Origin: Cytophagaceae bacterium ABcell3
GTDB taxonomy: Bacteria > Bacteroidota > Bacteroidia > Cytophagales > Cytophagaceae
DNA length: 64,000 bases
Direction of reading: 5' to 3'
Assembly: GCA_030913385.1 (NCBI GenBank)
Contig: CP133159.1
Coordinates: forward strand, 2,874,584 to 2,938,583
Every line of letters begins with the position of its first letter. The first letter of the stretch is position 1. A program made the position numbers and the translations under genes. The notes under the pieces were generated by a model. The model was given only the letters and a program-made list of their open reading frames with translations. It was not told the origin of the DNA and searched no databases. This document shows positions 1,925 through 58,394 of the stretch, piece by piece.

Positions 1925-2074
1925 TACCTGGATTATGCATTAGATTTCGTTATGAGGGGCATAAGAACAAAAAATCAGCGTATTGGGTTTGCAAAGCATA
2001 GTGGTTCTATGGTTAAAAACCAAATGCGAGAATGCGAGCGAAGCGTCTGATTTGAAGTTATTTTGTCACGCAAT
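1925..2074 (+). repeat. Truncated copy of the AACCTGGATTATGCATTAG repeat family (copy A)
   Basis: It begins TACCTGGATTATGCATTAG and matches the copies at 22740..22916 and 58221..58394 over about 150 bp, including the internal GGTTCTATGGTTAAAAACC motif. After CACGCAAT it departs from the family and lacks the right terminal inverted repeat, so it looks truncated or recombined. No coding capacity is credible. Confidence 0.75.
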
Positions 2075-2527
2075 TGATGATTTAGAGCCATTGCCAAGGC
2101 AACCATTCCAGCTTTTATTCCTTGTTAGCACTGGACTTGGTTCCGCCCCCAACGGGGCTAGTTGGTGTTGGATCGAAATCCATACCGATATTTCGCCCTT
2201 AGCAGGGCTTTCTTTGTTTGATGATACTATCCCAATTTTTTTGAGCAAAAAAATATAAAATAACTGAAGCCTTTTTTTTCTAATATTTCCTGAAAAACTT
2301 TACAAGTAAAATACGTTTCCCAATGCGCCTGAAATACAAAGTCTATCTGTCTAATGTAGGGCGCGCTGAAAAACGCCCAAAACATTGACCTGTTGAAATT
2401 TGCATAAAAATTAGGAGGTGTAGGTGCAAGGGTTTTCCGGTTATTTCTTATTTTTCCGTGCACATTAAAGTAACAAGCTTTTAACCCAATACTTTTTTGG
2501 GCTAGCCACAAGCGCACAATCTACTTT

Positions 2528-12512: not shown

Positions 12513-12580
12513 TCTTGACCCTAGCGCTGTACGCTTTGCGACTCAAAAATGGTGGTTTGTTGCTACTTTGCTCATCATGA

Positions 12581-12606
12581 TGAAACCAATCGCATAACTC
12601 AGATTA
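12581..12606. repeat. Fragment similar to 34699..34727
   Basis: TGAAACCAATCGCATAACTC followed by AGATTA resembles AGAAACCTATCGCATAATTCAGGTTT at 34699..34727, with similar bases (TTTGCTC, ATGA) just upstream in both. It may be a degenerate end of the AACCTG repeat family or a second family. Confidence 0.35.
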
Positions 12607-12634
12607 AAAAAAAGCCGGAACATTGTCCGGCTTT
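12606..12634 (-). terminator. Terminator of the ligA-dapA operon
   Basis: AAAGCCGGA (12611..12619) pairs with TCCGGCTTT (12626..12634). On the minus strand the stem is followed by a run of T, about 50 bp after the dapA stop. Confidence 0.85.
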
Positions 12635-12682
12635 GAGGATTTATTTTGTACGTAATAGAATGCGCTATTGCATATTTCAGCT

Positions 12683-13561
12683 TTAGTTCACTTCTGTCAT
12701 TTTCTCACGTATTCTGTCTTTCAATGAGTCGCTGCATTTTACCAAAGGTAACCTTACATGACCTTCGCAAATATTAAGAAGTTCTAAGGCTTGTTTGATG
12801 CCTACAGGGTTGCTTTCTTCATAAAGCAAAGGGTTGAGGCCTGAAAAGGATTTTAATATAGGTAGTGCGTCCTGAAAATTCTGGTCAAGGCTTTTTCTTA
12901 CCATTTCAGAATACTGTGAAGGATATGCATTGGCAAGAACAGATATAACGCCCTTGGCTCCAATTGAGATCATTGGAACTGTAAGCATATCGTCTCCTGA
13001 TATTAGGTAGAAGTCTTGAGCTGCACCTTTTACCACTTCCAGCCCCTGTGTGAGATCGCCTCCTGCATCTTTTACACCTATAATGTTAGGGTGTTGTGAA
13101 AGCCTGATAGTGGTCTGTGCCGTTATGTTTACCCCTGTCCTTCCCGGAACGTTGTAAAGGATGATTGGCACAGGGCAGTTGTCTGCTATGGCTATGTAAT
13201 GTTGGTATATTCCTTCCTGACTGGGTTTGTTGTAATAAGGGCAAACTGATAATACTGCTTTGACGCCTTCCAGGTCTGTGGATTTTATCCTGGAGATTGT
13301 ATCTGCTGTATTATTGCCTCCAATACCATATACTATGGGCAACTTGCCTTGAAGGTGTTTCTTGGCTGTATCCAGCAGTAAGGTTTTCTCTTGCGAATTA
13401 GTTGTTGCAGATTCCGCAGTTGTTCCATTTACAACAACATAGTCAACTCCTCCTTTCAGAACATGATCTAAAAGTCTGCCAAAGGCTGCTAGATCAGGAG
13501 TGAGATCAGCTTTGAAAGGTGTTGCTAGTGCTACACCGGTACCGGTAATGTCAATACCCAT
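12683..13561 (-). CDS. dapA: 4-hydroxy-tetrahydrodipicolinate synthase
   Basis: 292 residues, the normal length for DapA. It condenses pyruvate with aspartate semialdehyde in the lysine and diaminopimelate pathway in the cytoplasm. Visible residues are the substrate loop NGTTAES (about 45-51), the catalytic Tyr136 in LYNVPGRTG and the Schiff-base Lys164 in GVKDAGGD. Its start codon directly abuts the stop of the preceding gene, so it is the last gene of the ligA operon and needs no promoter of its own. Other family members (NanA, KDG aldolases) are less likely given the Thr pair and GRTG motif. Confidence 0.93.
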   Translation of the reverse strand: MGIDITGTGVALATPFKADLTPDLAAFGRLLDHVLKGGVDYVVVNGTTAESATTNSQEKTLLLDTAKKHLQGKLPIVYGIGGNNTADTISRIKSTDLEGVKAVLSVCPYYNKPSQEGIYQHYIAIADNCPVPIILYNVPGRTGVNITAQTTIRLSQHPNIIGVKDAGGDLTQGLEVVKGAAQDFYLISGDDMLTVPMISIGAKGVISVLANAYPSQYSEMVRKSLDQNFQDALPILKSFSGLNPLLYEESNPVGIKQALELLNICEGHVRLPLVKCSDSLKDRIREKMTEVN

Positions 13562-17461: not shown

Positions 17462-17601
17462 GAATAATTGCTTTTAACCTGAAAAAGGAATAGAGTTTTT
17501 GCAAAATAACTTCAAATCAGGCGCTTCACTTTTAATGAATCAAAGGACGTTCTTAACGTACTTTAGCAATTTGCAATATTACAGTAGATAAATAAGCAGA
17601 A

Positions 17602-22729: not shown

Positions 22730-22739
22730 AGATAATTTT

Positions 22740-22916
22740 TTAACTTGGATTATGCATTAGATTTCGTTAAGAGGGGCAAAAGGATAAAAAAATCAGCGTA
22801 TTTGGTTTTGCAAAGCATAATGGTTCTATGGTTAAAAACCAAATGGGAGCGGAGCGCCTCATTTGAAGTTATTTTGCCACGCAATAGAAAGTTCTAATGC
22901 ATATTTCAGGTTTAAC
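22740..22916 (+). repeat. Full-length AACCTGGATTATGCATTAG element (copy B)
   Basis: About 177 bp with terminal inverted repeats: left TTAACTTGGATTATGCATTAG, right (reverse complement) TTAAACCTGAAATATGCATTAG. It is non-coding and shares an internal GGTTCTATGGTTAAAAACC hairpin motif with the other long copies. It lies between the divergent ldhA-like and DUF6089-like genes. Confidence 0.8.
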
Positions 22917-27344: not shown

Positions 27345-27723
27345 AGGATTACCCATTTAAGTCTCTAGAAGTAATAAGTTTTTTGCATGATAAAATGCTT
27401 TAAACGGTCTTCCTTAAGTGACGGTACGTGCCATAGTTAGACAATAAGACGGCCATTGATGAAATTGCGTAAAGAACTTTATAACCATGGAGCGGCCAAA
27501 AAATTTGCTGTCTGAGCCCGACGCAAGGAGGGTGAGTTTCATCCCGATAGCTATCGGGATAGCGTAATGGTTATAAAGTTTAGCAAATTTCATCACAGGC
27601 CTTGACTTTTTTGCTTACTTTTTTTGTCCAAGAAAAAAAGTAAGGCCTTGCCGGCGAGGCAAAAAGTAACTTAGCTAGCCTATGTAAGCTAATAAAGCAT
27701 CAGATATCTAAATGGGTAACCCT
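27345..27723. mobile_element. 379-bp MITE-like element, copy 1, with 10-bp target duplication
   Basis: The ends AGGATTACCCATTTA and (reverse complement of the right end) AGGGTTACCCATTTA form 15-bp inverted repeats. The element is flanked by a perfect direct repeat ATTTTTAAAT at 27335..27344 and 27724..27733. Inside are a long imperfect dyad (27457..27488 with 27567..27595), the palindrome ATCCCGATAGCTATCGGGAT at 27541..27560 and a stem CTTACTTTTTTT / AAAAAAAGTAAG. No transposase is encoded. The second copy is at 32619..32988 in the same orientation. Confidence 0.85.
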
Positions 27724-32618: not shown

Positions 32619-32988
32619 AGGATTACCATTTAAGTCTCTAGGAAGTAATAAGTTTTTTGATGCTTTAAACTGCCTTTCTTAAATGGCGATATGTGCCATT
32701 GTTAGAAAATAAGGTGGCCATTGATGAAATTGCGTTAAGAACTTTATAAGCATGAAGCGGCCAAAAAATTTGCTGTTTGAGCCCGACGCAAGGAGGGTGA
32801 GTTTCATCCCGATAGCTATCGGGATAGCGTAATGGTTATAAAGTTTAGCAAATTTCATCACAGGCCTTGACTTTTTTGCTTACTTTTTTTGTCTAAGAAA
32901 AAAAGTAAGGCCCTGCCGGCGAGGTAAAAAGTAACTTAGCGAGCCTAAGTAAGCTAATAACACATAAGATATCTAAGTGGGTAACCCT
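32619..32988. mobile_element. 370-bp MITE-like element, copy 2, with 10-bp target duplication
   Basis: This is the same element as 27345..27723 in the same orientation, with ends AGGATTACCATTTAAG and AGGGTTACCCACTTAG (reverse complement of right end). It is flanked by a perfect direct repeat ATTTCTATAT at 32609..32618 and 32989..32998. The internal GATAGCTATC palindrome and the CTTACTTTTTTT stem are conserved, while the terminal third has small indels. It has no credible gene. Confidence 0.85.
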
Positions 32989-33000
32989 ATTTCTATATTT

Positions 33001-33070
33001 AAACCTGAAATGTGCATTAGAACTTTCTTTTGCCCCTTATAACGAAATCTAATGCATAATCCAGGTTAAA
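33001..33070 (-). repeat. Short 70-bp AACCTG element (copy D)
   Basis: AAACCTGAAATGTGCATTAG begins the element, which ends CTAATGCATAATCCAGGTT. These are the two ends of the long copies B and C joined by a 30-bp middle, in inverted orientation. The left end sits only two bases after the target duplication of the adjacent MITE. Its near-palindromic sequence would fold as a hairpin. Confidence 0.75.
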
Positions 33071-34524: not shown

Positions 34525-35170
34525 ATTTTTTCCTTTTTTGCTTGTTATCACCTGGTTCATCGATTTGTAGTAGATATTTGCAAGGAAATTACGATGCATG
34601 GTAGAAAGCTGCATGTACTACGGTTGTTTTAACCTTGAAAAAATAGGACTTTCTATACATAGCAAAAGTGCTGATTTACTGTTGTTTTGCTCCTAATGAG
34701 AAACCTATCGCATAATTCAGGTTTAACGTTGATGTTTTCCTTCTACAGACTTATTTACGTATTCATGTTTTTTCTTTGTTCCCCTATTTTAGTCTATGTA
34801 AAATTCCTGCTTTTTCTGCTTGTTTTTTACTGTGTAAGTATAGTGTAAATAATTGAAAATTAGATGTATGAATGTAGTGTTTGTGGATTAGTATGTATTG
34901 TACATATAGAAGATTTTTGTTTTATTTTACTTTTCGATTTAGGTAATATTTAGTATCATTTTTTATTAAATATTGGAAATATTACATAATATACTTTAAA
35001 AGTATAATGAAGCTGCTTATCTTTAAGCTTCCAATTGTGCTTTTCTTCGGATTGCTGTTTAGTGGTATGTACAGACAACACTTTGTATGCCTGCATGTAT
35101 AACACTAGATGGTCAAAGAGTATGATTGGGAAATTGTAAAACTTATTTTCTAACCCTAGCTAACTTTACC
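34525..35170. other. 646-bp AT-rich spacer before the GH8 gene
   Basis: It holds no gene. A short piece at 34699..34727 resembles the AACCTG repeat family and the fragment at 12581. The rest is T-rich and low in complexity, with no convincing TAnnTTTG box near the gene, although TAACTTTA sits just before the ATG. Confidence 0.5.
34699..34727. repeat. AAACCT...AGGTTT repeat fragment (copy G)
   Basis: AGAAACCTATCGCATAATTC followed by AGGTTTAAC carries small inverted ends AAACCT / AGGTTT and resembles the fragment at 12581..12606. It may be a minimal relic of the same family as copies A-F. Confidence 0.4.
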
Positions 35171-38100
35171 ATGAAAAAAAGCTACATTTTGCCGGTTCTC
35201 GGTTTTATCTGTATGGTTTTCGTACAGAAGGCATGGTCTCAAGAAGCATACCCCTTCCCTCAGGATGTGGAGTATACTTATGGACAAATGCCAAACAATC
35301 GAAACACGGCACATGCACAGGCTGCTTATGAAGCCTGGAAGAATGAATATGTTACCACAGAGGGTGCCTGTGGTCACAGACGTGTTATTTTTGACTTTTT
35401 CCCTGGAACCCAAAGAGGAGCCGAGGACAGATCTATGACTGTATCTGAAGGTATTGCCTACGGTATGCTTTTGGCAGCATACGCTGGTGACCGTCCTGTA
35501 TTTGATGGTCTATGGGGGTATTACCAGCACCATGCAAACCATAACGGGTTTATGCACTGGAAAATTCAGAACTGTAATGTTATAGGAGAGAACGGTGCTT
35601 CTGATGCTGACCTAGACGTTGCAATGTCTTTGGTTATTGCTTCTTATCAATGGCAAAGTGATGACTATCTTAGTGATGCAAGAAGAATGATTCGCTTGAT
35701 AAGAGAACACCAATTTGATGGCGACATATTGAAGCCAGGTGATATGTTTGGAGGATGGAATCTTACTAACGCTTCTTATTTCTCACCTCACTATTATAAA
35801 GTTTTTAAAAGGTATGACCATGGTCATGAGCAGTTTTGGGATGATGCGGTAACAAGAGGTTATCAGATCATAGAAGCTGCTGGTGGTACAACTGGTTTAG
35901 TGCCTGACTTTCACAGAGCTGATGGTGAGTATAGTCCTGATGCTTCCCATTACGAAGAAGGCGGTAGGGATTTTATCTTTGATGCTGTCAGAACTCCTTT
36001 GAGATCAGCACTTGACTATTTATGGCACGGATCGCCTGAAGGTAAAGCTTATTGTGAAAAAATTATTGGATGGTTAAGAGATTCTCATCAAGACAACCCT
36101 AATAATATTGGATCGCGGTATGCAACAAGAATCTCTACCAGTGGAAATGAAGGTGATAAACTTGGGCACCACCTTAACAATACATTCTTAGGATGCTTTG
36201 CTGTAGGTGCTATGGCTGCCGATGGTTTGGCTAATAACCAAAGTTTTGTGGATGAAATTTATCGTGTAAACCAAGAAGTAAACCCTGGTTATGGTGAGTA
36301 CTTTAATGCTACCATCAAAACTATTGCACTTTTTGTTCAGACAGGTAACTTTTACCTTCCTCCACCTGATCAATGTGAAGCTCCTGACTTAGGTGATAAC
36401 AGGTCTCTCTGTGAAGGTGCTATAACTTTGGATGCAGGAGTTTCTAACAGAACCTATACTTGGAGAAGAAACAATGTTACTTTGTCTGAAACTGGACAAA
36501 CGCTTCAAGTGTCTCAGGCAGGTGACTATGAAGTGGTTGCTACTGATGCTGAGGGTTGTACACGTAGAAGTAGGGTGACTGTTTATGATGAAGAAATTAA
36601 TGCTGATTTTACCTCTTCTGTAGTAGCAGGTAGTATTAGATTGAATAATACTTCAACTGGTGGTATTTCAGACTATCATTGGGAAGTTTCTTTAGATGGT
36701 GTGGTAGTAGAAGAAAGTGAAGAGGAAAACTTTGCAACTGAAATATTGAGCGAAGGTGCTTATGAGGTTACCTTAACTGTCAATAACTCAGGATTTGGTT
36801 GTTCTGATACTGATGAACTTACAAGAACTGTTCTCATTAGCGATGGTGAGGGATGGTCTGCTAACCAGTTTAATGACAATGCTTACGCGCAACCTTGGAT
36901 TGGAGCCAATGGCTATGAAGAATTACCTCGTACTTGGTGTTCTGAAGAAGCGCATGATGATGGGGATGACCCAGAATGTCTTGACTTACCTTGTGGCTTG
37001 TTAGAAGTTAATGTAACAGGTGGAGGACAGTATGATCCATTTGGTGTAAACTTCAGACATGATGACGAAGATGTAGCAGTAGATATGGATGCTGTTCCTT
37101 ATGTTACTTTTAGAGTTAGGACTACAGCAGATGTAACCCTTGGTGTTGGAGTTAATGATGGACAAGTAACTACAAACCGCGCAGAGGTTGAACTTACTGC
37201 CGGAGAAGCTCAAGTGGTGCAGGTAGAGTTCCCTGCTGATAATACAACTTTAAGAACAGGTTGGTTAGATGAAGACAACCCAAGTGTAGAGGTTGATTTT
37301 ACTAATATAGTTGCTGTTAACTTCTTCCCTATGGAAGACGATCCTGATTGGGAAGGCACTATAACTATAGAATGGATTACTGTTGGTGGTGCTACTGTTC
37401 CAACCCCAACTTTTGATCTGGAAGTTGATGAAAACGGTTTCCCTACTTATGATGCAGATGGTAACAGAATCTCAACTTGGCAGCAAAGGGTAAGTGCATG
37501 TGATGGAGAGGCTGTTGTTAATGCTCAGTCTTGTAGTGCAGAAGAAATTCGCTGGTATTCTGGAAATACGAACACGTTAATTGCTACAGGTGAAACAGCA
37601 GAGCTTGCTCCTGGTAGATATTATGTAGATTTGATTAACCAAGGAGGTATTACTCGTGATACTGTAGAAGTTAGAGGCGCTGACCTTGAAGCAAACTTTA
37701 GATATGAACTAGAGGACAATGGTCTTGGCCTTCGCTTGATCAATACTTCTGTAGACTTTGACTCTTGGGAGTGGAGTTATGGTACTGACGATTTTGAAGA
37801 AGGTGCCGAGACTTGGGAAGAAGGATATCATTATTATGAAGAAGAAGGCGAGTATGAGGTTTGTCTATATGTATTAAATGAAACTTGTGGAGATAGAGAT
37901 ACTATTTGTAAAACTATTGAAATCAAGTGTGAAGCGCCAATGGAAGACCCTGCTGGATTCAGTGTAGATGGTGCTGAAGTAGGTGATACGTTGACCACTT
38001 GTGCTGGAACTGAGCATGTAATCTCTGTCGAAGAGATCGAAAATGCTGAAAGCTATGCATGGTATGGTATGGAAGAAGATGCGCTAGAAGAAGATCTTGA

Positions 38101-41100
38101 GCTTACTTTCACTTTTGAGGAATCTCACTGGATCAAATTTGAAGCCTATAACCAGTGTGGTGAAAAAGTTGAAGACTCGCTTTACGTACATGTACTACCT
38201 GAAATGGTCGCAGAGTTTACTGCTACTGAACATGAAGATGGTGGTGGAAAATATATTTTTGAAGCTACGTGGGTAGGAGAAGAAGAGGATGTGCTTTATG
38301 AGTGGGTTATAGATGGAGAAACGAAAGGTGAAGGTATCTATATTGAACTGGAGCTTGAAGAAGGTGAAAACACTGTAGAGCTTCATGTAAGTGGAGAGTG
38401 TGGTGAGGATGATACTTTCGAAGTGATTGATGTTGAAGTTGAGTGTGAGGAAATAGGTACTGCTTCTAGCATAGAAGGTGATGACCTTGTTTGTCCTAAC
38501 GCTGATGAAGTAGTGTTTACCGTTGCAGATGTAGATGGTGCTACTTCTTATATGTGGACTGTTCCTGAAACTGCTGAAATTATTGATGGAGAAGGAACAA
38601 ACACTATTACTGTTTCTTTCGAGACTACTGGCGGCGTTGTTTCTGTCGTTCCTAGAAATGCTTGCCACTATGGCAATGAGGTAGAGCTTGAAGTTAATAT
38701 TTTAGAAGCTACTGCTGACATTACTGGTGAAATCGAAGGTGAAGAAGCTGTATGTAGTGGACTTGAGGATGTAGTTTACACTGTTGAGCCAGTTGAAAGT
38801 GCAGCTTCTTATGTTTGGACTGTACCTGCTGGTGCTGAAATCACTGCAGGAGAAGAAACAAACAGCATTACTGTAACTTTTGGTGAGGAAGCTGGAGCTA
38901 TCACAGTAGCTGCTATTAATGAATGTGGTGTAGAAGGTGCTTCTGTTGAACTTGATGTTGTCATTGAAGATGGTATCTCTGATGAGGTTGTTCAAGTATC
39001 AGGTAGCGAATCTGTTTGTAGTGGAGCTGTTGTTGAGTTCTCCGTACCTGAAGTAGCTGGTGCTACTGGATACGAGTGGACTATTCCTGCTGGTGCAGAA
39101 ATTTCATCTGCTGATGAAACAGCTAGTATAGTAAGTATTACATTTGGTGACCAAGGTGGTGATGTATCTGTAACTCCTTACAACGCATGTGCTGAAGGAT
39201 CTCCATCTGAAGCTTTTGCTGTTGAAATTAGTGGTGTAGCTAATCCTGCTGGAACTATTACTGCTAGTGCAGAAGAAGTTTGTGCAAACGCAACAGATCT
39301 AACTTTTGCAATTGACGCTGTTGATGGTGCTGACTCTTATAACTGGACACTTCCAGAAGGCGCTGTAATTACAGCTGGTGAGAATACAAATGAAATCACT
39401 GTGACTGTAGGTACTGAAGGGGGGACTGTAAGCGTAACACCTATCAGTGAATGTGGTGACGGAAGAGCTTCTTCTATTGAATTAGTTGTTAACGCTCCTG
39501 CTGCTGATGCTGGTGATATCGTAGGTGCTGAATCTGTATGTAGTGGTTTATCAAGAGAATTCTCAATTGCCGAAGTAGAAAATGCTACGGCTTATGAGTG
39601 GACTGTTACTGGTGACGCTACTATTGAAGGTGATGCTTCAGGAAATACTGTGACTATTGCTTTTGGAAGCGAAGGTCAAGTTGAGGTAAGTGTAACACCT
39701 ATTAGTGACTGTGGAAACGGTCAATCAGCTGAAACTTCTGTACTTGTTATAGAAGGTGTTGAAGCTGCTGGAGCTATAAGCGGTGATGAATCTGTTTGTG
39801 CAGGTGCTGAAAATGTTCAATATAGCATTGAGCCAGTAGCTGGCGCTGAAAGCTATACTTGGACTGTTCCTGCTGGCGCTGATCTTGTTGGTGATGATAA
39901 CGGTACTTCTGTTGTTGTTAACTTCAACAATTCTCAGGGTGGTGACATTACTGTTACCCCTCATAGCGAGTGTGGTGAAGGTACAAGTGCTACTTTACCT
40001 ATATCTGTAATAGCAATTCCTTCTATTGACCTAGAAGGTGAAGAAGCTGTATGTGCTAATGAGTCTTCAGTTTATACAGTAACTGAAGTTGAAGGTGCTT
40101 CTTATAACTGGACAGTATCTGGTGCTCAGATATCTAGTGGACAGAATACCAATGAAGTTACTGTTAACTTTGAGTCAACTGATGCACATGTTTCAGTAAT
40201 TGTTACAGGTGGATGTGCTAACGAAACTGCTACACTTGATGTAACTGTAAATGATGGCGCACCTACGCTTGGTGCTATTGACGGACTTGAAGATGTATGT
40301 TCTGGTACGGCTGTTACTTATTCAGTTGATGCCGTTGCAGGTGTAAATAGCTACGAATGGACTGTTCCTAGTGGCGTTTCACATGATATAGATGAAAACA
40401 GTGTAACTGTTAACTTTGGAACTTCAGGCAACTATACGCTTTCTGTAACTCCTGTTTCAGGATGTGGTGATGGCGAGCCTGTGTCTATCAATGTTGCAGT
40501 TGACCAAGGTCTAGGTGCAACCGGTGATATTACGGGAAGCAATGCTGTTTGTGTAAACCAAGAGTATACTTTCGAAGTCCCAGAAGTTTCTGGTGCTACT
40601 AGGTATAAGTGGATCTTGCCTTCTGGAGCTACTGCCGTTGGAAATAACAATGAGCGTGAGATTACTGTAAGGTGGAGTGAAAATCCAGGCGGTGAAATTA
40701 GAGTTATTCCTGCTGGAGAGTGTGGTAGTGGTAGTACTTCTACTTTGACTGTATCGGCTGCAACTGTTTGTAAGCCTGGTGATAGAGAAGTTGATGGGCC
40801 AAGGATTGTTTATACTAACAGTGAAGACAATAGGTTTGCTGTGGATCCAGTAGAAGGTTCTACTTATAGCTGGACTGTTCCAGAAGGTGCTATCATTACT
40901 TCTGCAAGCGCAGATAGCAGTGAAATATTTGTAACTTTTGGAGATGCTACTGGAGAGTTTGAAGTTACTCTTAGAGAAGAGAACTCTGAAGGAGCGCATA
41001 CCACTACTTTCCCTATTGCTGTTAGCTTTACTACTTCTGTAGGTGAAGAGCTTAGTGGAGAGGTTACTGTGGCGCCTAACCCAACTGAAGGTGTATTCTA

Positions 41101-41305
41101 CATTAACTTAAGTGAAGTGTTTAACGGTTCTGTTATTGTAAACGTTAGAAACGCTGTAGGTTCTCTTGTATACTCTACAACAGAAGAGCTTACAGGTAGT
41201 GGAGCTTCATTAAGAATGAATGTTTCTGATTACCCTTCTGGTATTTATATGGTTGAAATTCAAACCAATGATGCCATGGTAGTTAAAAGAGTAATTAAGA
41301 ACTAG
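35171..41305 (+). CDS. T9SS-secreted GH8 glycoside hydrolase with PKD-like repeat array
   Basis: 2044 residues from the ATG at 35171, which gives a clean signal peptide (about 1-23, ending AWSQ); an earlier ATG adds 15 residues and spoils it. A GH8 domain (about 25-400) carries SEGIAYG (Glu93), ASDADLD (Asp145/147) and FDAVRTPLR (Asp271), the expected catalytic residues. An Ig-like domain, a PKD domain, a jelly-roll-like module (about 565-760) and more PKD/Ig modules follow. Then come ten repeats of ~85 residues (about 1100-1950) built on AxSYxWTVPxGAxI ... VSVTPxNxCG. The end (about 1965-2044) is a T9SS type A sorting domain (APNPTEGVF ... YPSGIYMVEI ... VKRVIKN). It is probably a cell-surface endoglucanase or xylanase; the exact substrate is open. 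Confidence 0.9.
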   Translation: MKKSYILPVLGFICMVFVQKAWSQEAYPFPQDVEYTYGQMPNNRNTAHAQAAYEAWKNEYVTTEGACGHRRVIFDFFPGTQRGAEDRSMTVSEGIAYGMLLAAYAGDRPVFDGLWGYYQHHANHNGFMHWKIQNCNVIGENGASDADLDVAMSLVIASYQWQSDDYLSDARRMIRLIREHQFDGDILKPGDMFGGWNLTNASYFSPHYYKVFKRYDHGHEQFWDDAVTRGYQIIEAAGGTTGLVPDFHRADGEYSPDASHYEEGGRDFIFDAVRTPLRSALDYLWHGSPEGKAYCEKIIGWLRDSHQDNPNNIGSRYATRISTSGNEGDKLGHHLNNTFLGCFAVGAMAADGLANNQSFVDEIYRVNQEVNPGYGEYFNATIKTIALFVQTGNFYLPPPDQCEAPDLGDNRSLCEGAITLDAGVSNRTYTWRRNNVTLSETGQTLQVSQAGDYEVVATDAEGCTRRSRVTVYDEEINADFTSSVVAGSIRLNNTSTGGISDYHWEVSLDGVVVEESEEENFATEILSEGAYEVTLTVNNSGFGCSDTDELTRTVLISDGEGWSANQFNDNAYAQPWIGANGYEELPRTWCSEEAHDDGDDPECLDLPCGLLEVNVTGGGQYDPFGVNFRHDDEDVAVDMDAVPYVTFRVRTTADVTLGVGVNDGQVTTNRAEVELTAGEAQVVQVEFPADNTTLRTGWLDEDNPSVEVDFTNIVAVNFFPMEDDPDWEGTITIEWITVGGATVPTPTFDLEVDENGFPTYDADGNRISTWQQRVSACDGEAVVNAQSCSAEEIRWYSGNTNTLIATGETAELAPGRYYVDLINQGGITRDTVEVRGADLEANFRYELEDNGLGLRLINTSVDFDSWEWSYGTDDFEEGAETWEEGYHYYEEEGEYEVCLYVLNETCGDRDTICKTIEIKCEAPMEDPAGFSVDGAEVGDTLTTCAGTEHVISVEEIENAESYAWYGMEEDALEEDLELTFTFEESHWIKFEAYNQCGEKVEDSLYVHVLPEMVAEFTATEHEDGGGKYIFEATWVGEEEDVLYEWVIDGETKGEGIYIELELEEGENTVELHVSGECGEDDTFEVIDVEVECEEIGTASSIEGDDLVCPNADEVVFTVADVDGATSYMWTVPETAEIIDGEGTNTITVSFETTGGVVSVVPRNACHYGNEVELEVNILEATADITGEIEGEEAVCSGLEDVVYTVEPVESAASYVWTVPAGAEITAGEETNSITVTFGEEAGAITVAAINECGVEGASVELDVVIEDGISDEVVQVSGSESVCSGAVVEFSVPEVAGATGYEWTIPAGAEISSADETASIVSITFGDQGGDVSVTPYNACAEGSPSEAFAVEISGVANPAGTITASAEEVCANATDLTFAIDAVDGADSYNWTLPEGAVITAGENTNEITVTVGTEGGTVSVTPISECGDGRASSIELVVNAPAADAGDIVGAESVCSGLSREFSIAEVENATAYEWTVTGDATIEGDASGNTVTIAFGSEGQVEVSVTPISDCGNGQSAETSVLVIEGVEAAGAISGDESVCAGAENVQYSIEPVAGAESYTWTVPAGADLVGDDNGTSVVVNFNNSQGGDITVTPHSECGEGTSATLPISVIAIPSIDLEGEEAVCANESSVYTVTEVEGASYNWTVSGAQISSGQNTNEVTVNFESTDAHVSVIVTGGCANETATLDVTVNDGAPTLGAIDGLEDVCSGTAVTYSVDAVAGVNSYEWTVPSGVSHDIDENSVTVNFGTSGNYTLSVTPVSGCGDGEPVSINVAVDQGLGATGDITGSNAVCVNQEYTFEVPEVSGATRYKWILPSGATAVGNNNEREITVRWSENPGGEIRVIPAGECGSGSTSTLTVSAATVCKPGDREVDGPRIVYTNSEDNRFAVDPVEGSTYSWTVPEGAIITSASADSSEIFVTFGDATGEFEVTLREENSEGAHTTTFPIAVSFTTSVGEELSGEVTVAPNPTEGVFYINLSEVFNGSVIVNVRNAVGSLVYSTTEELTGSGASLRMNVSDYPSGIYMVEIQTNDAMVVKRVIKN

Positions 41306-54921: not shown

Positions 54922-54972
54922 TTAAACCTGGATTTCACGCAATAGAAAGTTCTAATGCTTATTTTAGGTTAA
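54922..54972. repeat. Short AACCTG element (copy E)
   Basis: TTAAACCTGGATTTCACGCA begins it and TTTTAGGTTAA ends it, about 50 bp. It joins the left tip to the right 35 bp of the long copies. It lies after ppc and before the gtrA gene, in the same orientation as copy F. Confidence 0.7.
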
Positions 54973-55574: not shown

Positions 55575-55624
55575 TTTAACCTGGATAATGCAATAGAAAG
55601 CCCTAATACATATTTCAGGTTTAA
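55575..55624. repeat. Short AACCTG element (copy F)
   Basis: TTTAACCTGGATAATGCAAT begins it and CATATTTCAGGTTTAAA ends it, about 50 bp. It lies downstream of the gtrA gene and has the same orientation as copy E. Confidence 0.7.
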
Positions 55625-58220: not shown

Positions 58221-58394
58221 ACTTGGATTATGCATTAGATTTCGTTATGAGGGGCAAAAGAACAAAAAAATCAACGTATTTGGTTTGCAAAGCATAGTGG
58301 TTCGTTCAATGGTTATAACCAAATGCTAGTGAAGCGTCTGATTTTAAGTTATTTGGCCACGCAATAGAAAGTTCTAATGGATATTTCAGGTTTA
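58221..58394 (+). repeat. Full-length AACCTGGATTATGCATTAG element (copy C)
   Basis: About 174 bp, beginning ACTTGGATTATGCATTAG and ending TTCTAATGGATATTTCAGG then TTTA. It follows the RhlE-like gene by about 60 bp. It shares its internal layout with copies A and B. Confidence 0.8.

Follow-up and report, generated by a model that had tools for sequence, protein, structure and literature searches.

Copies in the window

The window, a stretch of 64,000 nucleotides (G000:C1:2874584-2938583) in the 5.115-Mb single-contig genome of Cytophagaceae bacterium ABcell3, contained a dispersed repeat that is a MITE of approximately 165 bp, beginning with CCTG and finishing with CAGG. Its end pattern AACCTGNNWTATGCATTAG (up to three mismatches) was matched 14 times in the window, compared with 0.41 expected matches and a maximum of 2 in 100 shuffles. 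Two of these matches (30610 and 42235, with three mismatches each) were taken as chance. The reference copy was a full-length MITE of 167 bp at 22744..22910 (plus strand, 126.9 bits with model R1), flanked by an exact TTTAA at 22739-22743 and 22911-22915. Another full-length copy, of 169 bp at 58222..58390 (plus strand, 115.2 bits), had the left end CTTG, a small loop insertion and inexact flanks (TTTTA and TTTAT; row L024). The copy at 1927..2099 (plus strand, 87.7 bits) showed no visible duplication. A preliminary description of this DNA had placed it at 1925, about correctly, and called it truncated; it belongs to the full-length class and has a ruined right end.

The remaining copies were short or decayed. 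A form of 62 bp with an internal deletion lay at 33004..33065 (minus strand, 52.0 bits with R1) between exact TTAAA flanks, and a form of 40 bp, consisting of nearly just the two ends, lay at 55580..55619 (plus strand, 24.3 bits) between exact TTTAA flanks. Two others gave no R1 report at E ≤ 0.05: a 42-bp form at 54927..54968 (plus strand; end match, nhmmer E 1.7e-5; TTAAA on both flanks) and a decayed form of approximately 89 bp at 34633..34721 (minus strand; nhmmer E 4.3e-7; TTTAA on both flanks). Two decayed fragments stood back to back at 12513..12685 (12513-12608 on the minus strand, nhmmer E 3.5e-8, and 12621-12685 on the plus strand, E 5.2e-5), and a one-ended fragment occupied 17478..17530 (minus strand, E 1.2e-5), again with no R1 report for any of the three. 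All six copies named in the preliminary description (1925, 22740, 58221, 33001, 54922 and 55575) were present, with coordinates right within a few bases; the number of recognisable places in the window was about nine instead of six.

The examined sequence held 13 short forms of 38–122 bp. Their junctions were mostly different, two forms of 57 bp having a common one, and 7 of the 13 were flanked by an exact duplication. To judge from their sequences, the short copies look like internal deletions of the long element, as the preliminary description had proposed. An older relative of 122 bp was seen elsewhere in the same genome (L096, 1108-1229), its loop having, by eye, a Cyclobacteriaceae-like look, which would suggest long residence of the family in this genome. 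The window also contained a 300-bp direct repeat (27395-27694 and 32660-32959, 93% identical) and a 2059-aa ORF with repeated units (35126-41305).

Element ends, target duplication and empty sites

The consensus of the 30 best genome copies, after alignment, was 165 bp long, beginning with CCTGGATTATGCATTAG and finishing with CTAATGCATATTTCAGG; the ends of the family are CCTGGATTATGCATTAG and CCTGAAATATGCATTAG. The preliminary description had taken AACCTG as the element end and had seen no clear target duplication. Both points were mistaken: the outer AA/TT is part of a 5-bp target duplication, mostly TTNAA, and this duplication was exact beside CCTG/CAGG in 21 of the 30 best genome copies (TTTAA, TTAAA, TTTAG or TTGAA), with TTCAA as an additional type in other copies. 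In a more loosely collected set of 74 copies from the same genome, 30 duplications were exact and 15 were off by one base, compared with 11.1 exact duplications expected when flanks were shuffled between copies and with none in either of the two following 5-bp windows. Looser sets gave 22 of 28 exact duplications in genome G423 (8.2 with shuffled flanks; none in either following window) and 37 of 61 in other genomes (13.8 with shuffled flanks; 0 and 1 in the following windows).

Empty sites were provided by a different dispersed repeat of approximately 260 bp (TAGGGCGCGCTGAAAAACG...CAGCAGGCCCTA), which one MITE copy (G000:1297651-1297814, in L003) interrupted at TTTAA. Eight distinct other copies of this repeat (nine rows, L017 being the same place as L109a) were continuous through the site and had a single TTTAA; one of the eight lies in the window near 2352-2615. 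In a further copy of the 260-bp repeat, this TTTAA held a second MITE (L309), for which a separate and a shared insertion are both possible. The repeat itself was seen at about 2352-2615 of the window and in L003, L096, L097, L102, L108, L109 and L039. Because its ends resemble those of a resident 1652-bp insertion sequence (IS), TAGGGTCTGCTGAAAAA, it may be a MITE of that IS.

The element thus has the features of a MITE. It is short (165 bp) and gene-less, with no ORF of at least 120 aa overlapping 22744-22910, and it has terminal inverted repeats, with 99.2% of the cells of helix 1 paired. It has a target duplication and empty sites, the latter being other repeat copies of the same genome in place of sister strains; the relatives searched included no genome of its genus. 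Its ends are shared with autonomous elements of other genomes, none having been found in its own.

Copy number in the genome

Searched genome-wide with up to two mismatches, the end pattern CCTGNNWTATGCATTAG gave 296 matches, compared with 17 for a reversed control pattern. Of 150 candidates scored with model R1 on both strands, 134 were matches, and at least 88 distinct near-full-length places (138–173 bp) were found in the 5.1-Mb genome among the R1 matches listed. These places were spread around the whole chromosome (test of uniform spread, p = 0.18); the family, described beforehand as a dispersed one with inverted ends and long and short forms, is therefore that, and neither its copies nor their terminal symmetry are confined to the window. 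An HMM search over 464 kb, made up of the window and 20 stretches of 20 kb at even spacing, produced 66 hits at E ≤ 1, counted as 42 places, nine of them in the window; this count includes decayed and short copies, some possibly chance. Three copies of equal score lay within 13 kb of one another (L308; G000:4722506, 4726845 and 4735242) and are perhaps part of a segmental duplication.

Relatives in other genomes

With the CCTG pattern (up to one mismatch), 44 of 118 genomes had any match; the ABcell3 genome had 176, followed by G003 with 7 (control 1). The CCCG pattern had matches in 74 of 148 genomes, and the richest (G424, 205; G438, 161; G404, 113; G423, 89; G445, 72) belong to family f19, Cyclobacteriaceae by its named records. 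An exact two-ended pattern recovered 32 stretches in named genomes (own-genome records possibly left out): Algoriphagus, Cecembia, Echinicola, Cyclobacterium, a Cyclobacteriaceae MAG, Galbibacter orientalis (Flavobacteriaceae) and a Chitinophagales MAG. The pattern admitted 159–189 bp, and 26 of the 32 stretches were 165 or 166 bp long. A fixed length was nevertheless rejected, since copies in Cecembia (G484, G441) measured 185–218 bp and some elsewhere 172–190 or 330 bp, by nested insertions. Smaller palindromes (TCCGCCGCGGCGGA, GTGCGCCGTGGCG, CCCGAT..ATCGGG, CTACC..GGTAG) were nested in the arms or loop of many Cecembia, G423-like and Algoriphagus copies (L196, L199, L208, L211-L222, L226, L228, L229, L231, L247, L253, L255).

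A plasmid search with a G423 copy had a sole match, one 164-bp copy on Microscilla plasmid pSD15 flanked on either side by ATAAT, and phage sequences searched with the window copy gave no match. Of 395 genomes drawn evenly from the phylum and searched under stricter filters, at the cost of weak matches, 6 matched, the ABcell3 genome included; the family is therefore patchy. The copies of G423 (L191-L202, L326-L345) were closely similar: 19 copies of 166 bp had a median pairwise identity of 97%, 18 of 171 pairs reached at least 99%, and up to three copies were identical. The 30 best resident copies of the ABcell3 genome were 91–99% identical to their consensus.

Candidate partner transposase

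Both MITE ends resemble the ends of IS1380-family elements with open transposase genes, found in G300, in G018 (same family as ABcell3) and on a plasmid of Aliarcobacter cibarius. The G300 IS (L112/L136) was 1403 bp long, encoded a 440-aa IS1380 transposase and had the ends CCTTGATTATGCAATAG and CCCGAATTATGCATTAG; the G018 IS (L111) was 1390 bp long with ends CCCAAAATAAGCGATAG and CCCGGATTAAGCATTAG and a TTTAA duplication. Both scored above the NCBIfam NF033539 (IS1380) cut-off of 180 bits (260 bits for L112, 242 bits for L111). The plasmid element (L362) had an open transposase gene, the ends CCCGCATTATGCAATAG and CCCAGATTATGCAATAG and an ATAAT duplication. An equally similar transposase in A. 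faecis (L363) had no such ends in the stretch examined. The resemblance concerns the terminal 17 bp of these ISs, and the G018 and A. cibarius copies carry 5-bp duplications as the MITE does. When 70-bp left ends of the MITEs of ABcell3, Cecembia and Algoriphagus were compared with the left end of the G300 IS, the score was reached in 0, 51 and 3 of 1000 shuffles, respectively, and compared with its right end, in 0 of 1000 for each. After removal of the terminal 17 bp, the inner 53 bp reached their score against the left end in 61, 898 and 922 of 1000 shuffles. At the sequence level the similarity appears to rest on the ends; the MITE differs from the G300 IS in having no gene, and no significant similarity to that IS was found beyond those ends.

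Transposases of this kind were sought in the ABcell3 genome. The profile PF13701 (IS1380-type DDE), which does detect G300, had no match there, nor did the G300 IS1380 protein as a query, in a search that lacked a positive-control genome. The family looks orphaned in this genome because no IS1380 transposase was found in its single contig. The preliminary description, which had seen no transposase, was right as far as the genome was searched, and the likely partner class can now be named as IS1380. Among 390 genomes of the order, 26 matched PF13701, 9 of them above the cut-off. A match was obtained in 3 of 14 MITE-bearing genomes other than ABcell3 and G300, and G423, a single contig with recently spread copies, had none. 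The IS1380 transposase may be lost quickly or be plasmid-borne, or the mover may be a different enzyme. Lone ends in G423 were considered as ends of a hidden autonomous copy; the two places examined (L326, L327) were altered MITEs.

Resident ISs of the DDE_Tnp_1 class were also considered as partners and rejected. The genome had 22 DDE_Tnp_1 matches in four groups, and the three multi-copy groups have other ends: CAGGGCTGACGCATTTA, TAGGGTCTGCTGAAAAA and a third, poorly delimited, starting near GGTATTTTCGC. The single L140 gene was covered by the end-pattern scan.

Conserved fold between lineages and decay within the genome

To evaluate the fold, 34 copies chosen from many lineages, five of them from the ABcell3 genome, were aligned with MAFFT without fitting to structure. 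The hairpin scored comprised helices A, B and C, the base of helix D and a 7-nt side hairpin. As the structure came from RNAalifold on the same alignment with manual additions, the share of paired cells is biased towards the fold: 93.1% of 1377 cells were paired, compared with 83.0% in shuffles and 33–42% when the alignment was slid by 1–3 columns. Changes on both sides of a pair affected 162 cells, compared with 52.1 in shuffles and 6–31 when slid, and the covariation was 0.336 versus 0.153 in shuffles, cells not being independent here because the sequences have common ancestry. Double changes occurred in 19 pairs (15.5 in shuffles; reached in 5 of 500), and further pair types were not above shuffles (51 versus 51.8). 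Manual shifting of gaps in some rows brought the paired share to 95% of cells and the number changed on both sides to 207. The side hairpin read GCGAAGC here and GCAAAGC, GCGTAGC, GTGAAAC, GTGCAAC, ATGTAAT, ACTTAGT or ACAGCGT elsewhere, and was missing in some copies (G404 L203, L244). The imperfect hairpin and its side hairpin were thus kept by compensatory changes in the 34 copies though the letters differ.

Such constraint was not seen among 30 resident copies of the ABcell3 genome, which were those most similar to the window copy instead of a random sample. Substitutions affected 141 of 3588 paired sites (3.9%) and 66 of 1340 unpaired sites (4.9%; Fisher p 0.13), and pair-keeping changes made up 51 of 135, with a fraction of 0.374 expected (p 0.93). 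Three compensatory doubles were found versus 1.95 expected, a number reached in 153 of 500 permutations, the power for compensation being low at approximately 4% divergence.

Complementarity of the arms could arise merely from template switching or conversion between them, giving covariation without function, and long palindromes are known to be corrected in this way. Against this, the resident copies, approximately 4% from their consensus, had no compensatory excess, at the low power just given, and paired changes also maintain the side hairpin, for which the other arm holds no counterpart. We regard this explanation as unlikely, with a small but real chance of being right. Since the fold is kept between lineages and unconstrained among the 30 resident copies, we infer that it matters while the element is mobile and not for the host.

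Gene context and strand of the copies

The strong covariation across lineages would also be expected if the host had domesticated a structured non-coding RNA, or a regulatory element such as a riboswitch-like leader, a terminator or a 3' stabiliser, that was spread by mobility and still works at each site. In line with that, none of 64 copies (at least 60 bits) lay inside an ORF of at least 80 aa, though approximately 87% of the sampled DNA was ORF; ORF calling was crude and purpose-made, and a copy splitting an ORF would count as intergenic and escape this test. Leaving aside the constant 5-165 pair, G-U cells exceeded A-C cells by 49 to 9 across lineages, the pattern expected from a folded sense strand, compared with 46 versus 32 in resident decay. 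This contrast between lineages and resident copies had p 0.001 when cells were counted and p 0.19 for distinct pair changes (23 versus 8), so that the excess is a hint only as to the strand. Domestication is opposed by the lack of constraint in the 30 resident copies and by the placement of the copies. The 64 copies occupied 39 co-directional, 13 convergent and 10 divergent gaps, with 2 at edges, which differed from background gaps (105, 44 and 55) with p 0.18. Among the 39 in co-directional gaps, 16 had the direction of the genes and 23 were against it, without orientation bias. Rfam 15 had 0 matches at the gathering score in the window; a copy searched by itself gave one hit (E 0.44; 15.6 bits, gathering score 60). 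A domesticated RNA is accordingly improbable in our estimation.

A covarying hairpin is also a feature of elements that move as folded single strands during replication, such as IS200/IS605, REP-RAYT or integron cassettes, and the side hairpin is of the type GC-GNA-GC, a very stable single-stranded DNA motif, in several lineages. REP/RAYT and IS200/IS605 elements are defined by single-strand mobility and the lack of a target duplication. The MITE has 5-bp target duplications and ends in common with DDE-type IS1380 elements. Integron attC sites form arrays among cassettes next to an integrase; the MITE copies are distributed evenly along the chromosome. Relative to forks deduced from GC skew, which flips near 0.5 and 3.25 Mb, its sense strand followed the fork in 42 and opposed it in 46 of the 88 listed places (p 0.75), without strand bias. 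Movement as a folded single strand of that kind is the least credible of the explanations weighed here, and we give it hardly any weight.

Interpretation

Taken as a whole, the data very probably describe a MITE family inserted by an IS1380-family transposase in trans, with a fold that would matter in the mobile phase and resident copies that decay neutrally. An IS1380-family DDE transposase would act in trans on non-autonomous elements of approximately 165 bp, inserting them mostly at TTNAA with duplication of 5 bp. The transposase would later have been lost from this genome, where the remaining copies would decay neutrally and shorten by internal deletion. During the mobile phase the fold may, for example, help to join the two ends of the 165-bp DNA, or act in single-stranded form or as a transcript. 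The first part of this account, a large IS1380-type MITE family that is apparently orphaned in this genome, is close to settled. A further proposal is offered tentatively, as a minority possibility: the branched hairpin may be a working part of transposition, in which a cruciform, single strand or transcript would join the ends of a DNA whose 165 bp are too few for easy looping, and selection on mobility, not on host function, would preserve the covarying structure of this DDE-type transposon throughout Bacteroidota.

Other known systems share some of these properties. The IS982-derived MITE of Cardinium is likewise short, gene-less, IS-derived and spread genome-wide; there, intact parental IS copies are present in the genome and the element is reported from that strain only, whereas here no parental IS was found, and there are relatives in several families and a covarying fold (PMC9769881). 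REP/RAYT elements are likewise small palindromic repeats of high copy number (PMC3733652), and differ from the MITE, which has 5-bp duplications and DDE-type ends. The eukaryotic piggyBac elements, for which IS1380 has served as the outgroup, target TTAA and have 5' end motifs such as CCCTT, CCCTC and CCCAT, comparable, by description, to the TTNAA target and CCYG ends of the bacterial family described here, with a 4-bp duplication there and a 5-bp one here (PMC10813416). With its CCC-like ends and TTNAA target, this IS1380 group also recalls piggyBac.

The element is of a known kind, a MITE; the novelty lies in its conserved fold and in the enzyme being missing from two single-contig genomes. 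No description of this family was found in the literature searched, in which coverage of subscription journals was poor. If the ordinary part alone is true, a large IS1380-type MITE family has been recognised that is useful for annotation. MITEs are usually described as leftovers with interiors free to vary. Here compensatory changes preserve the fold of the interior across genera, and across orders as well, while copies within one genome rot freely. This contrast separates selection in the mobile phase from use by the host, and makes the family natural material for testing which features other than its ends a MITE requires.
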